This document shows, piece by piece, positions 49,689 to 56,908 of a stretch of 64,000 nucleotides of DNA. Origin of the DNA: Bradyrhizobium arachidis (GTDB taxonomy: Bacteria > Pseudomonadota > Alphaproteobacteria > Rhizobiales > Xanthobacteraceae); the NCBI RefSeq assembly GCF_024758505.1, contig NZ_CP077970.1:5146001-5210000 (forward strand), read 5' to 3'. The position numbers were made by a program, and so were the translations under genes. The notes under the pieces were generated by a model. The model was given only the letters and a program-made list of their open reading frames with translations. It searched no databases and was not told the origin of the DNA. Position 1 is the stretch's first letter. Every line of letters starts with the position of its first letter.

Positions 49689-52600
49689 ATGCGGATTGAG
49701 CGGCGCCACACCACGGCAGGACAATCACCTTACGCCGGGATCGATTTCCGGCTGACCACGTCGGAGATCCGGAATCCCGACGGCTCGGTCGTGTTCAGGC
49801 TCGAGAACGTCGAAGTGCCCGGCGCCTGGTCGCAGGTCGCCTCCGACGTGCTCGCCCAGAAGTACTTTCGGAAAGCGGGCGTCGCCGCGCGCCTGAAGAA
49901 GGTCGAGGAGGAATCCGTCCCCTCCTTCCTGTGGCGCTCGGTGCCCGACACCGAGGCCCTCGCCGCCCTGCCTGAGAAAGAGCGCTTCGTCAGCGAGCTC
50001 TCGGCCAAGCAGGTGTTCGACCGACTCGCCGGCTGCTGGACCTATTGGGGCTGGAAGGGCAAGTACTTCTCCACCGACGAGGACGCGCAGGCCTTCTATG
50101 ACGAGCTCCGCTACATGCTCGCTATGCAGATGGTCGCACCGAACTCGCCGCAATGGTTCAACACCGGCCTGCACTGGGCCTATGGCATCGACGGCCCCGG
50201 CCAGGGCCATTATTACGTCGACCCCTTCACCGGCAAGCTGACCAAGTCCAAGTCGGCCTATGAGCATCCGCAGCCGCATGCCTGCTTCATCCAGGGCGTC
50301 GGTGACGACCTCGTCAACGAGGGCGGCATCATGGACCTCTGGGTGCGCGAGGCGCGCCTGTTCAAATACGGCTCCGGCACCGGCTCCAACTTCTCGCGCC
50401 TGCGCGGCGAGGGTGAAAAGCTCTCCGGCGGCGGCCGCTCCTCGGGCCTGATGAGCTTCCTGAAGATCGGCGACCGCGCCGCGGGCGCGATCAAGTCGGG
50501 CGGCACCACGCGCCGCGCGGCCAAGATGGTCGTGGTCGACGTCGATCACCCCGATATCGAGACCTATATCGACTGGAAGGTGAAGGAGGAGCAGAAGGTC
50601 GCCGCCCTCGTCACCGGCTCAAAAATCAACCAGAAGCATCTCAAGGCCGTGCTCAAGGCCTGCGTGAACTGCGAAGGTTCGGGCGACGATTGTTTTGACC
50701 CCGAGAAGAACCCTGCCCTGCGCCGCGAGATCAAGCTCGCGCGCCGCAGCCTCGTGCCTGACAACTACATCAAGCGCGTCATCCAGTTCGCCAAGCAGGG
50801 CTACAAGGACATCCAGTTCGACGTCTACGACACCGACTGGGATTCGGAAGCCTATCTCACCGTTTCGGGGCAGAACTCCAACAACTCGGTCTCGCTGAAG
50901 GACGACTTCCTCCGCTCGGTCGAAACCGACGGCGACTGGAATCTCGTGGGCCGCACGACCAAGAAGGTCACGAAGACCCTGAAGGCGCGCGACCTCTGGG
51001 AGAAGATCGGCCACGCCGCCTGGGCCTCGGCCGATCCGGGTCTGCACTTCAACACCACGATGAACGACTGGCACACCTGCAAGGCGTCCGGCGACATCCG
51101 CGCGTCCAATCCGTGCTCGGAATACATGTTTTTGGACGACACGGCGTGCAACCTCGCCTCCGCCAATTTGCTGACGTTCTACAACACGACGACGAAGCAC
51201 TTTGACGTCGAGTCCTACGAGCATCTCTGCCAGCTCTGGACGCTGGTGCTCGAAATCTCCGTGATGATGGCGCAGTTCCCGTCGAAGGCGATCGCCGAGC
51301 TCTCCTACGAGTTCCGCACGCTCGGCCTCGGCTATGCCAATATCGGCGGCCTGTTGATGACCATGGGCCTGTCCTACGACAGCAAGGAAGGCCGTGCGCT
51401 CTGCGGCGCGCTGACCGCTGTCATGACCGGCATCACCTACAAGACCTCGGCCGAGATCGCGGCCGAGCTCGGCACCTTCCCCGGCTACAAGAAGAACGCG
51501 GCGCACATGCTGCGCGTCATCCGTAACCATCGCCTCGCCGCGCACGGCCGTGCATCCGGCTATGAAGGGCTGAACACCAATCCGGTGCCGCTCGATCACG
51601 CCTCCTGCCCGCAGGCCGACATCGTCACCCACGCGCAGGCCGCCTGGGATGCCGCGCTGTCGCTCGGCGAGCAGCACGGCTACCGCAACGCCCAGACCAC
51701 CGTCATCGCGCCGACCGGCACGATTGGCCTGGTCATGGATTGCGACACGACGGGCATCGAACCGGACTTCGCGCTGGTAAAATTCAAGAAACTCGCCGGC
51801 GGCGGCTACTTCAAGATCATCAACCGCGCGGTCCCCGAGGCGCTGCGCGCGCTCGGCTATCGCGAGAGCGAGATTGCGGAGATCGAGGCCTACGCCGTCG
51901 GCCACGGCTCGCTGGCGAACGCCCCCGGCATCAACGTCTCGACGCTGAAGACCAAGGGCTTTACCGATGAAGCGATCGCCAAGGTCGAAAAGGCCCTGCC
52001 GACCGCCTTCGACATCAAGTTCGCCTTCAACAAGTGGACTTTTGGCGAAGACTTCATCCGCGACCAGCTCGGCATCGGCGCCGAGGCGATCGCGGCCCCC
52101 GGCTTCGACCTGCTCCAGGCCGTCGGCTTCACCAAGCGCGAGATCGAGGCGGCCAACGTCCACATCTGCGGCGCGATGACGGTGGAGGGAGCTCCCCACC
52201 TCAAGGCAGAACATTACGCGGTGTTCGACTGCGCCAACCCCTGCGGCAAGATCGGCAAGCGCTATCTGTCGGTCGAAAGCCACATCCGCATGATGGCCGC
52301 GGCGCAGCCCTTCATCTCGGGCGCGATCTCCAAGACCATCAACATGCCGAACGACGCCACGGTGGAGGACTGCAAGTCCGCCTACATGCTGTCGTGGAAG
52401 CTCGCGCTCAAGGCCAACGCGCTCTATCGCGACGGCTCGAAGCTCTCCCAGCCGCTCAACTCGCAGCTCATCTCTGACGATGAGGACGAGGATGATGCGG
52501 TCGAGGCGCTCTACGAGAAGCCGATGGCGGCGCGTGCGGCGCAGATCTCCGAGAAGGTGGTCGAAAAGCTCGTCGAGCGCATCATCGTCATGCGCGAGCG

Positions 52601-53444
52601 CGAGAAGATGCCGGACCGTCGCAAGGGCTACACCCAGAAGGCGGTCGTCGGTGGACATAAAGTCTATCTCCGCACCGGCGAGTATGACGATGGCCGTCTC
52701 GGCGAGATCTTCATCGACATGCACAAGGAAGGCGCGGCGCTCCGCTCCTTCATCAACAACTTCGCCATCGCCGTGTCGCTCGGCCTGCAATACGGCGTGC
52801 CGCTCGACGAATATGTCGACGCCTTCACCTTCACCCGCTTCGAGCCGGCGGGCCCCGTGCAGGGCAACGACAGCATCAAGTACGCGACCTCGATCCTGGA
52901 CTACGTCTTCCGCGAGCTCGCGGTGTCGTATTTGTCCCGCTTCGACCTCGCCCATGTCGATCCCAACGAGACGGGCTTCGACGCACTCGGCAAGGGCGTC
53001 GAGGAAGGCAAGGAGCCGGACGAGGACCGCGGCCACCACGCGACCAAACTCGTGTCGCGCGGCCTCACCCGCTCCCGCACCGACAACCTCGTCGTGATGC
53101 GCGGCGGCACGATGCCGGCGAGCGACGGCGGCGGCAGCAAGGTCACGGCGCTGGCCTCGCACGGCACCTCGGCCCGTGCCGGTGACGCCGTCGAAGGCGC
53201 CGTCGCGCTGAAGCAGGAAGCCCAGCACGACCTCTCGCCCACCGAGAAGCTCGAGCAGCTTCAGTGGAGCAAGGCCGGCACCGCCGCGCAAACGGTCGTC
53301 CCCACCAAGGCCGAACGCCGCGCGGAAGCAAAGGCCAAGGGCTACGAAGGCGAGATGTGCTCGGAGTGCGGCAACTTCACCCTGGTGCGGAACGGCACGT
53401 GCATGAAGTGCGATACGTGCGGCAGCACGACGGGGTGTTCGTGA
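49689..53444 (+). CDS. nrdJ: Vitamin B12-dependent (class II) ribonucleoside-diphosphate reductase
   Basis: A 1251-residue enzyme that makes deoxyribonucleotides with adenosylcobalamin, without needing oxygen or a small subunit. Visible are '[16 protein letters not shown]', '[10 protein letters not shown]', '[23 protein letters not shown]' (active-site Cys and Asn/Glu region) and '[22 protein letters not shown]'. The C-terminal zinc-ribbon-like tail, '[14 protein letters not shown]' followed by CMKCDTCG, is typical of the long alphaproteobacterial form. The ATG at 49689 begins [18 protein letters not shown] terminator follows at 53496. No nrdR is in the window. Confidence 0.97.
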
Positions 53445-53495
53445 GGCGGTAGCGCGCGACGATCGTTGGGACCGGGCGAGACCCAGGCATCTACA

Positions 53496-53524
53496 AAGGG
53501 CGGCCGAAAGGCCGCCTTTCCCTT
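53496..53524 (+). terminator. Rho-independent terminator of nrdJ
   Basis: A 10-bp stem AAGGGCGGCC / GGCCGCCTTT with a GAAA tetraloop, followed by CCCTTAG. It lies 51 bases after the stop and separates nrdJ from the AT-richer ATPase gene. Confidence 0.85.
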
Positions 53525-53584
53525 AGACACGGCCCCCCGAAAACCGTGCGACGGCGCATACTCGCCTAAAGAGGACAGGATAGT

Positions 53585-55369
53585 ATGTATTTCTCTAGCG
53601 GCTTAATCCTGAACAGCGGCCCGATAGCAAGTCTGCAGCTCACCCCATCCTTCACTGACGATGGGCTACCTAAACCGCTCGTCCTTGTGGGCACAAACGG
53701 CTCGGGAAAAACCGGAGCATTGTCGACTATTGCTGATGCACTAGCCGAAATCGCGGCTCAGTACTTCATCAATGCACTTCCGGCGCACGGAGCTGGTCAC
53801 AAATACTTTCGGATGCTCGGCGGAAGAAGTCTGCGAATTAACCAGTCGTTTGAACTTAGCGCGCTGAAGTTTGTCCATGGCAATACCGATTTCCTCATTA
53901 GGGCAAAATCGGGCTCCGTTCCATCCGATGCGATTCCTCGAAGCTTCACTCAGTTCGATCCTCTGGCTGGACTAGCAGGTGGAGGTAGCGAGAAGGTCTT
54001 CTCCGGCGATACCGGAAAGCTTCATGAAATCTTCGCTGGAGGCGCATATGCGTTCTTTCCTTCGAGCCGCTATGAAATTCCACACTGGGCTAATACTCAA
54101 GTTCTTGAACGCAATCCCGAGTGGGATTTCACCCCAAGCGTGTCCGACCGTCTCGAAAACCCGATTATCGTTGAATCTTCCTTTCAAGAGCTCAAGTCTT
54201 GGCTCTTAGATGTCGTCTCCGCACGCACGATTGATTTTCATCATGTACTCGCCGCGACCGACCTCGACTTACTCAAGAGATCCTACCGTGGAGGTCACTA
54301 CATAAATGTATCAAACAGTCTTGGTTTGGATGAGATATTCTCGACGATACTTGGACGAAGGGTGCGAATTGCGCGGCTAATGGGAGGTAGCAAGGACCGA
54401 AGAGTGTGCATAGCTGAGGGCAATGAAATTGTGCTGAATTCCATTGACCACCTATCAGCAGGACAATCTTCTCTTCTTTCCATATTTGGCACCGTGGCGA
54501 GGTACGGCAATGTTCCTCGGTTACCTTTGGACCAACTACAAGGATTGGTTTTAGTCGACGAGATCGATGATCATCTGCATGCGGACTTACAGCACGACGC
54601 GCTCCCTAAGCTGATGAAATTGTTTCCCCGCATACAGTTTATTGTGAGTTCTCATGCTCCACTCTTCTTACTCGGAATGCAGAAAGCCTTCGGTGAAGAT
54701 GGATTCTCAATTGTTGATTTGCCGTCTGGCCTAACAATTGGGCCTGAACGGTTCTCTGAATTTGAATCTTCGTTGTCCTATTTTCGTGCAACGCTTTCAT
54801 TCGAGAACCTTCTTCAGGCAAGGATCGGAGCCGCTGGGCCGCCGTTGGTCTTAACAGAAGGGCAAACCGATCCCACATATTTGAAGGCAGCATCCGAGCT
54901 CCTGGGCTTCGCCGATCTGACCACCGGTGTCGAATTTGACTGGGTTGGCGCTCCCGATGTCCGAGGCGCCCAGGGTGGCGGAAAGAGCCATCTCGATGAT
55001 GCTGTTAAATTCCTTGTCAACAATCCGCAATTTCAGATCAGAAAAGTGCTCTTTTTGTACGACCCCGAGACGAGGAAGTCGTCGTTCGACTCTGGAAACT
55101 TGCATGTTAGGACCTTGACTCAAATTCCTACAGCGAAGCGAAAGAACGGGATCGAGAACCTTCTGCCCGATCATGTGTTCGAGCCCCGCTTCTTCCAAAA
55201 TACGGTTATGGGCAAGGGTGACGACAAGGGTCCCGTACCCATGCTGCAGAAAACCCAACTCGCCGAGTATCTCTGCAACGCAAAACGCGATCCCGCGGAC
55301 TTTTCTGCTTTCCGGGACGCCCTTGAAGTGATCCGAGAGTTATTGCTTCCCGTTCAACAAGAAGCGTAG
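53585..55369 (+). CDS. AAA ATPase with TOPRIM-like C-terminal domain (OLD-nuclease-like), probably acquired
   Basis: A 594-residue protein. The SMC/ABC-type ATPase has Walker A GTNGSGKT (36-43), a signature-like 'DHLSAGQSSLLSIFG', Walker B 'LVLVDEID' (Asp325-Glu326) and the H-loop 'FIVSSHAPLFLLGM'. The C-terminal ~175 residues look like a divergent TOPRIM: Glu425 and Asp429 in 'LVLTEGQTDPTYL', and Asp493 in 'VLFLYDPET'. This is the architecture of OLD-family nucleases, many of which defend against phage. Base composition is clearly AT-richer than its neighbours, with many A/T third positions, which suggests transfer. It stands alone between a terminator and a repeat; no helicase or methylase partner is adjacent. 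Defence is inference. Confidence 0.85.
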   Translation: MYFSSGLILNSGPIASLQLTPSFTDDGLPKPLVLVGTNGSGKTGALSTIADALAEIAAQYFINALPAHGAGHKYFRMLGGRSLRINQSFELSALKFVHGNTDFLIRAKSGSVPSDAIPRSFTQFDPLAGLAGGGSEKVFSGDTGKLHEIFAGGAYAFFPSSRYEIPHWANTQVLERNPEWDFTPSVSDRLENPIIVESSFQELKSWLLDVVSARTIDFHHVLAATDLDLLKRSYRGGHYINVSNSLGLDEIFSTILGRRVRIARLMGGSKDRRVCIAEGNEIVLNSIDHLSAGQSSLLSIFGTVARYGNVPRLPLDQLQGLVLVDEIDDHLHADLQHDALPKLMKLFPRIQFIVSSHAPLFLLGMQKAFGEDGFSIVDLPSGLTIGPERFSEFESSLSYFRATLSFENLLQARIGAAGPPLVLTEGQTDPTYLKAASELLGFADLTTGVEFDWVGAPDVRGAQGGGKSHLDDAVKFLVNNPQFQIRKVLFLYDPETRKSSFDSGNLHVRTLTQIPTAKRKNGIENLLPDHVFEPRFFQNTVMGKGDDKGPVPMLQKTQLAEYLCNAKRDPADFSAFRDALEVIRELLLPVQQEA

Positions 55370-55462
55370 CCCGTAGCGAACCTGATTGTTCCGGCAACCA
55401 TCCGGGTCCGATGAAGGTGCTGGCGCGATCACACTACGGGCAGCCACAAACTGCTCAGCACG

Positions 55463-55543
55463 CGTAGGGTAGATTAGCCGAAGGCGTAATCCACCAATTC
55501 GCACAATGCGGCGGCGGGTTACGCTTCGCTAACCCGCCCTACG
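55463..55543. repeat. CGTAGGG...CCCTACG dispersed repeat, copy 1
   Basis: Inverted ends CGTAGGGTAGATTAGCCGAAGGCGTAA and the reverse of 'TTACGCTTCGCTAACC' form a long imperfect hairpin. It is the same family as copies at 56784, 59225 and 63056. It fills part of the 216-bp gap after the ATPase gene. Confidence 0.8.
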
Positions 55544-55585
55544 CGCTCAATTCGGATAGATCGTTGCAGTAATGTCGGACGAAGC

Positions 55586-56266
55586 CTACACCGTCCTGCC
55601 GCGGCGCAAGGCCGCGTAAAGACCGACGAGGGTCCCGATCGCGACGAGCGCTGCCGCGAGCAATAGTTGCAATTCGCCGTCATCGGTGGAGCCTACGGAC
55701 GACAACAATCTCGTCACCACGACGAACAGGATGCCGACCGAGACCGCGGCACCCAGGCAGAGATGGACGAACTCGCCGGTCAGGTTGCGGTCGAGAAGTC
55801 CGAGCGCCGTGAAGTACATCGCGCCGGCGTTGGGGTGAACGAACACGGCGATCCGCGCATAAGGCCCGTAGGCGTCGAGGAGGGATTCGCATTTACTCAT
55901 CGCGGCTTTCGAGGCTATCAGCTTCAGGAACGGCCTGAAGAACCGGGCCTGTCCATAGCTGAGGACGGCGCCCACGATGATGGCCAGCCATGCCAGGATG
56001 AAGACGAACGCATCCGCGGGCTTGGGATTGAGCGCGACGGACATCAGGATCAGAGCGGTTCCTGGAAAATAGCCGAAGTACGGGAAGACCGACTCCAGGA
56101 GCACACACACGAATATGAAAACCGGAAACCATGACGAGGCGGCCGCCTCGAGCACGATCGCGTTCATGTCCAGGATATCAGTCTTGTAGAGCAGCAGGTA
56201 CACGCACATGGCTAGTCCAGCCAGCGCGTAAAACGGCAACGCCCCCGTCAGGAATCGCTTCGTCAC
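55586..56266 (-). CDS. DedA/VTT-like integral membrane protein
   Basis: A 226-residue membrane protein with about five hydrophobic helices. 'LLESVFPYFGYFPGTALILMSVAL' and 'YGQARFFRPFLKLIASKAAMSKCESLLDAYGPYARIAVFVHPNAGAMYFTALG' recall the DedA re-entrant loop with its glycine-rich F-PG motif; DedA proteins act as lipid scramblases or flippases. The usual Arg-containing motif is not obvious, so the family call is tentative. The start GTG at 56266 (VTKRFLTGALPF) is chosen because the longer frame to 56338 is polar and basic. Confidence 0.65.
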   Translation of the reverse strand: MTKRFLTGALPFYALAGLAMCVYLLLYKTDILDMNAIVLEAAASSWFPVFIFVCVLLESVFPYFGYFPGTALILMSVALNPKPADAFVFILAWLAIIVGAVLSYGQARFFRPFLKLIASKAAMSKCESLLDAYGPYARIAVFVHPNAGAMYFTALGLLDRNLTGEFVHLCLGAAVSVGILFVVVTRLLSSVGSTDDGELQLLLAAALVAIGTLVGLYAALRRGRTV

Positions 56267-56477
56267 TGCCGAACAGCCCGGCAGGCAAGTTTGCGCATGT
56301 GCACGGCGATTCCTTCGATGACCCGATCCCGACCCCACGCCAGCCCGCGTGAAGTCCCCCAGCGAGGTTCTACCGCGTCTGAGTTCTACGCGCTAGGCTC
56401 GCCAGCTTGCGCCCTGCCATAGTCATCGGATTTGTGCTAAAGTTCTACCGGTTTCCATCGGCGGAAGAGTATCGACC

Positions 56478-56732: not shown

Positions 56733-56783
56733 GCCCCACTCACCGCCTTTTCCAGCAGGGCTACGTTTGTGTAGTGATTGGTT

Positions 56784-56901
56784 CGTAGGGTGGGTTAGCC
56801 CCGTGAATTGCGCGAAGCGCAATTCACTAGGCGTAACCCACCTCTTTTATCTCCGCGTTAACAGAAGTGGTGGGTTACGCCTACGGCTAACCCACCCTAC
56901 G
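56784..56901. repeat. CGTAGGG...CCCTACG dispersed repeat, copy 2 (118 bp)
   Basis: The longest copy of the family. Ends CGTAGGGTGGGTTAGCC and GGCTAACCCACCCTACG are perfectly inverted. Inside is an 11-bp perfect stem GTGAATTGCGC / GCGCAATTCAC with loop GAA at 56803-56827. Confidence 0.9.
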
Positions 56902-56908
56902 CACCGCC

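Follow-up and report, generated by a model that had tools for sequence, protein, structure and literature searches.

A gene of Bradyrhizobium arachidis located at 53585..55369, on the plus strand of the 64,000-nucleotide stretch analysed here (the window; contig NZ_CP077970.1, positions 5,146,001 to 5,210,000), encodes an ATPase–TOPRIM protein that we read, with a probability of roughly 0.6, as a one-protein anti-phage system that was gained by horizontal transfer and stands alone, in which a PtuA/SMC-like ATPase is fused to a retron Eco2/Ec67-type TOPRIM nuclease and which would act through RNA-cleaving abortive infection. The open reading frame (ORF) of 594 amino acids (aa), starting with ATG, is confirmed, and direct support covers the domains, their folds and conserved active sites, the absence of a recurring partner, the foreign base composition, and the mobile and defence-rich contexts. 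The original prediction, a single-gene nuclease defence system, is partly supported, and the gene is a recently acquired, probably functional single-gene defence candidate.

Two conserved modules in one protein

The homologue search of 5.8 billion proteins (7998 candidates scored) retrieved 262 relatives with an E-value of 0.001 or lower, and conservation was followed in an alignment of 62 sequences, query included, chosen from the 120 listed of these relatives and ranging from 69% down to 35% identity to the query. The N-terminal part (residues 1–393, 53585..54763, on the plus strand like all features of the protein given below) is an ABC/SMC-like ATPase with a PtuA-like fold, matched in Pfam by AAA_21 above its cut-off (E 1e-10) and by SMC_N below it (E 5.7e-7). 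It harbors a Walker A motif (residues 36–43, 53690..53713; G36, N38, G41 and K42 identical in 62/62), an ABC signature (residues 290–294, 54452..54466; S291, G293 and Q294 in 62/62), and a Walker B motif (residues 321–326, 54545..54562; D325 and E326 in 62/62), while H332 is invariant and H357 is present in 61 of the 62 sequences. With the whole model, each of the 50 Foldseek rows listed is a PtuA, Septu or retron I-A complex chain, which is why the TOPRIM half was modelled separately; likeness to the NCBIfam PtuA model (65.6 bits, against a cut-off of 500) is confined to the ATPase half.

Modelled alone, the C-terminal TOPRIM domain (about residues 416–594, 54830..55366), recognised from profile and fold matches, reaches a predicted local distance difference test score (pLDDT) of 90.3, and its best solved-structure matches are TOPRIM nucleases. 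E425, G426, D429, D493, E524 and K556 are identical in all 62 sequences. An SMC-like ATPase with a TOPRIM-like tail built around E425, D429 and D493 had been proposed for this gene, and both the sequence matches and the predicted fold bear it out. E425 and D429 form TOPRIM motif 1 (54857..54871) and would, by analogy, be ligands of metal A and metal B, respectively, following the roles described for OLD (PMC7049728) and Eco2 (PMC12405507). D493 and E495 (55061..55069) make up a DxD/E motif, in which position 495 is acidic throughout (D in 53 and E in 9 of the 62 homologues). According to the alignment and to the comparison with OLD enzymes, G522 and E524 (55148..55156), an invariant glycine preceding the invariant glutamate, lie in the place of the second metal B motif, and K556 (55250..55252) is a candidate for the transition-state lysine.

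The metal A triad (E..DxD) and a second-metal acid four residues past the E are present and match class 1 OLD. The active site comprises E377, D381, D431, D433, S478, E480 and R487 in Ts OLD (PMC7049728), and E374, D378, D460, D462, S513, E515 and K562 in Eco2 (PMC12405507). A retron type I-C profile matches the TOPRIM half of the query at 1.6e-7, over short stretches, and the retron I-C profile combining reverse transcriptase (RT) and Toprim matches one homologue (L080) at 1.1e-25 over residues 414–644.

Recent arrival and mobile homologues

The gene has a guanine–cytosine content (GC) of 50.9%, and of 52.9% at third codon positions (GC3). Compared with 42 other non-overlapping ORFs of the window of at least 150 aa, none has a lower GC and one has a lower GC3, in agreement with the claim that its base use is unlike that of its neighbours. 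A scan of genome contigs with the single protein finds one locus, and this genome is the sole carrier among 265 genomes of the genus (E up to 1e-20), again the sole carrier in the class sample (1/385), and one of four carriers in the phylum sample (4/398), the threshold for the last two samples being E 1e-30 and the rows shown having three scored candidates per genome. Of 60 relatives, two others match the ATPase partially, over about 90–115 residues. The distribution within the genus, the foreign composition, and a relative (G007) that holds another gene between matching flanks uphold the recent acquisition proposed earlier.

A number of named homologues, among the matches listed, lie in cyanobacteria. 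Full-length relatives are carried by plasmids of Leptolyngbya (37.5%), Acinetobacter lwoffii (32.4%) and Acetobacter vaccinii (27.7%), and another homologue lies on a viral contig (L005), whose neighbouring genes, by eye, are phage-like and include a resolvase. Three P2-like phage contigs (L006, L007 and L009) carry distant relatives of the gene in the old/tin position, the one in L009 being aligned by hhalign at 100% (E 8.6e-56); the hhalign targets used here (retron TOPRIM, fused AriAB, P2 Old and L009) are single sequences. The flanks in these contigs are P2 gpA-like (36–45% identity) and P2 gpQ-like (68–70% identity), and P2 itself has orf91, tin and old in that interval, described as a defence hotspot (PMC9122126). 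P2 genes were searched for in loci L005–L039, of which L005–L009 were inspected closely. Near the homologue on the Acetobacter plasmid (L042) are genes for a DUF262 protein, a RelA/SpoT-domain protein and dynamin-family proteins, along with several insertion sequences.

No partner gene emerges from eight loci (the window, a Dehalococcoidia metagenome-assembled genome, a viral contig, three plasmids and two phylum genomes): at E up to 1e-4 and with ORFs of at least 60 aa, the sole protein common to any two of them is the ATPase–TOPRIM itself, some loci (L081) stopping near the gene. The statement that no usual partner is present stands on this comparison.

A turnover slot behind nrdJ

The gene lies behind nrdJ (49689..53444, plus strand), which encodes a vitamin B12-dependent ribonucleotide reductase (NF005736, 2360.8 bits, from ORF residue 60) and is a conserved landing site outside the system, its C-terminus being present in 249/257 genus genomes. 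The extent of the variable slot (53520..55542) is judged from relative G007, in which the nrdJ end (92% identity) and the downstream genes (about 94%) are retained and a trypsin-like peptidase gene replaces the ATPase–TOPRIM gene. Across 53 sites (52 relatives and the window; stretches L063, L064, L070–L079, L114–L153 and window 53520–55542), 42 distinct contents are found when BLAST pieces shorter than 100 bases are dropped, and one content, perhaps the unoccupied state, is common to seven sites. Some sites look nearly empty: in L139, for example, a 171-aa gene begins about 316 bases past nrdJ. This gene, ParB-like by eye, recurs downstream in L139, L122, L114, L120, L126, L130 and L131.

Among ordered pairs of 20 genomes, the first 1.5 kb of the slot is shared over half its length in 2/380 and the first 3 kb in 4/380, whereas the 3.3 kb upstream of nrdJ, which may contain about 100–300 bases of nrdJ itself, is shared in 368/380. 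The median GC is 54.6% for 1.2 kb of the slot (53 sites), against 65.4% upstream of nrdJ (20 genomes). Gene content turns over behind nrdJ in this genus, which is notable in itself; a literature search that covered few subscription journals listed nothing on it as a defence hotspot or island in Bradyrhizobium.

The contents of the slot were compared with PADLOC models for 24 occupants, picked by eye as a long ORF near nrdJ from the sites of 23 of the 52 relatives; scanning began with the ten that looked most like defence genes, which inflates the defence rate. Seven of the 24 match at 1e-50 or better: RT-Toprim_I-C (L120, 9.2e-220), HEC-07 (L150, 4.5e-209), fused AriAB (L132, 2.1e-157), HEC-01A (L128, 8e-134, and similarly L147, 4.4e-135), PD-T7-1 (L074, 6.9e-97) and candidate PDC-S20 (L116, 2e-76). 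Eight occupants have weaker best matches, namely an NsnB/AriA ATPase (L135, 9e-30), PDC-S25 with a Pfam SIR2_2 domain (L152, 1e-21), PDC-S45 (L078, 1.7e-19, and L063, 2.9e-18), a helicase (L149, 2.7e-17), a short ATPase (L070, 1.1e-13), AbiTii (second gene of L071, 1.1e-12) and a TIR effector model (L077, 4e-12); the first gene of L071 (8.6e-6) has weak protease-type matches only. The remaining eight lack any PADLOC match, including L118, a DUF4238 protein, and L123, which has a Schlafen AlbA_2 domain; a DUF4238-type protein from the P2 hotspot was positive as a single protein (PMC9122126). In a control set of ten other proteins of the window, unmatched for composition, there was a single marginal match (9.4e-4).

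Two further observations concern the occupants themselves. The L135 gene (649–2364, 572 aa) combines an AAA_15 ATPase with a long C-terminal half, and the top PADLOC models listed for it (NsnB, AriA, Old, GajA) match within the first ~320 residues; it is possibly another solitary ATPase–nuclease. The slot may repeatedly hold trypsin-like peptidases, as in L063 (Trypsin_2) and L078, both PDC-S45, and perhaps the first gene of L071.

Proposed mechanism and alternative explanations

If the gene is a stand-alone defence system, the PtuA/SMC-like ABC ATPase would be both sensor and switch, probably as an oligomer, and would keep the TOPRIM domain inactive before infection. Upon infection, the ATPase would free the TOPRIM active site, and the freed domain would cut RNA, the likeliest substrate being tRNA or other RNA of the host, and thereby halt phage production by abortive infection. 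The anti-phage action, the oligomerisation, the gating by ATP, the RNA substrate and the trigger are what we infer here. RNA cleavage is supported by analogy: Septu cleaves tRNA-Tyr, the isolated Eco2 TOPRIM domain is toxic and an RNase, its activity being dramatically reduced if E or D is changed (PMC12405507), and AriB cleaves tRNA (PMC12409363). More tentatively, with odds a little short of even, the homologues may form a retron-like immune enzyme family without a retron, in which a PtuA-type ATPase would replace the RT and the multicopy single-stranded DNA (msDNA) in sensing infection and locking an Eco2-type TOPRIM RNase, and whose single gene would spread between defence slots, including the P2 old/tin site and the newly seen nrdJ slot.

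Several points weigh against this interpretation. The glycine that starts the second metal B motif cannot bind metal by its side chain. The similarity between the TOPRIM domains of the query and retron I-C is modest and restricted to short stretches, so that the case leans on L080, and the RT-Toprim model is absent from the best 25 of the 77, 67 and 62 PADLOC matches of L001, L005 and L042, respectively. The homologue neighbourhoods, suggested as a check, include plasmids, viral contigs and the P2 old/tin site, but L001, L080 and L081 resemble ordinary chromosome by eye. In the slot, 17 of the 24 occupants lack a strong PADLOC match, eight of them having none, so its contents exceed known defence genes. 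As for the mechanism, the Retron-Eco8 OLD effector has no activity by itself, and its complex cuts double-stranded DNA (PMC12887533), so the substrate may instead be DNA, and in the stand-alone OLD protein YbjD the TOPRIM domain is dispensable for the anti-phage phenotype.

An OLD-like DNA nuclease would have the same one-gene layout, its TOPRIM domain nicking or degrading phage or plasmid DNA as in class 1 and class 2 OLD; we consider this unlikely, as the Eco2 TOPRIM outscores OLD in both sequence and fold, P2 Old reaching an hhalign probability of 17.8%, for one sequence. Three plasmids and some viral contigs carry homologues, one of which adjoins a RelE/ParE-type toxin gene and its partner; this would suit a selfish or plasmid- or phage-borne gene for exclusion or addiction, moving on mobile elements with no net benefit to this chromosome. 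Here, however, the gene is chromosomal, in a slot that also carries defence genes, and no antitoxin-like partner recurs, which leaves such a selfish gene distinctly improbable.

A housekeeping ATPase–nuclease with a role in repair or the cell cycle has a precedent in the archaeal OLD-class Cran1 (PMC12796447), but a gene of foreign base composition, carried by 1/265 genus genomes, its own, and rare in the class and phylum samples, is very hard to reconcile with that role. Least credible of all is an effector acting in trans for a retron located in another part of the genome: the two halves are each like retron effectors and the genome has six RT-domain matches, but the nearest is 0.93 Mb from the gene, an Rfam scan of 5.5 kb gives nothing above the gathering score and one match below it, and one homologue sits on a 12-kb plasmid with no RT annotated beside it.

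Edges of the slot and neighbouring features

The gene had been placed between a terminator and a repeat, and of these the repeat is confirmed. Upstream, a GC hairpin of 7 bp (53499–53516) followed by TTT is seen by eye 3' of nrdJ and marks the edge of the slot (53499..53519, plus strand), but it obtained no score in the terminator scan. A promoter scan of 53200–55700 found no sigma-70-like site, for a chance mean of 1.4. Downstream, the edge is a dispersed palindromic repeat (55461..55545), whose inverted pair (55461–55478/55528–55545) lies 3' of the ATPase–TOPRIM gene and whose 16-base core has 84 copies in the genome, against 0 for a reversed control. The repeat occurs up to 4 kb behind nrdJ at 8/53 sites, window included, versus 0/20 upstream stretches (3.3 kb). 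It is also found at window 56780–56905, and its copies often form close inverted pairs. The next gene (55586–56338) is on the opposite strand and has a weak VTT-domain match.

Comparison with known systems

Septu and retron I-A PtuA resemble the query in ATPase fold and sequence, but Septu PtuA has PtuB, an HNH protein, as its partner and lacks such a TOPRIM half. Nearest to the query TOPRIM domain, in sequence and in fold, is retron type I-C RT-TOPRIM (Eco2/Ec67), which has an RT half where the query has its ABC ATPase. Fused PARIS AriAB, found in the same slot in a relative (L132), is also a one-gene ATPase and TOPRIM, but with a DUF4435-type TOPRIM and an AriA-type ATPase, unlike the query: hhalign gives a probability of 59%, aligned from the ATPase end into the beginning of the TOPRIM half, DUF4435 has no match in the query at E up to 10, and AriB has none to the TOPRIM half, which is like AriB in fold alone. 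HEC-04/IbfA, a stand-alone ATPase–TOPRIM with reported phage interference (PMC12111858), is alike by description; the HEC-04 model is absent from the best 25 of the query's 80 PADLOC matches and from the six of its TOPRIM half.

Assignment to several of these systems was rejected: for Gabija, no GajB helicase adjoins, the next gene being the antisense one with the weak VTT-domain match, and no neighbour recurs in the eight loci; for Septu, no PtuB-like HNH neighbour recurs among them; for PARIS, there is no AriB/DUF4435 TOPRIM by sequence; and for a retron (I-B, I-C) in cis, the nearest RT match lies 0.93 Mb away and the 5.5-kb Rfam scan found no noncoding RNA above the gathering score.

Class 1 OLD (P2 Old, Ts OLD, YbjD) shares with the query its layout, an N-terminal ABC ATPase and a C-terminal TOPRIM in one gene without a partner, and the same acidic plan, and to this extent the predicted relationship to OLD proteins stands. 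Sequence kinship is nevertheless weak: OLD-like_TOPRIM (PF20469) is matched by 5/62 family members (best E 0.041), the query not among them, and neither PF20469 nor AbiTii was found in the genome. The second metal B motif opens with S in Ts OLD, T in the Burkholderia enzyme and D in P2 Old (PMC7049728), and also with Ser in Eco2, where the query has Gly. OLD is therefore a likeness for the query, not a class assignment.

The broad kind, an ATPase joined to TOPRIM, is known, while the combination of modules is new as far as the searches show, the literature search, with the scope given above, having listed no PtuA-type ATPase fused to TOPRIM. The nrdJ slot, with 42 contents at 53 sites, would offer a compact region in which to seek more defence genes in Bradyrhizobium, a genus that matters for soils and legumes. 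One stand-alone protein here unites two modules, each known from a different retron, and would make it possible to test directly if an ABC ATPase can stand in for msDNA in locking a TOPRIM nuclease.
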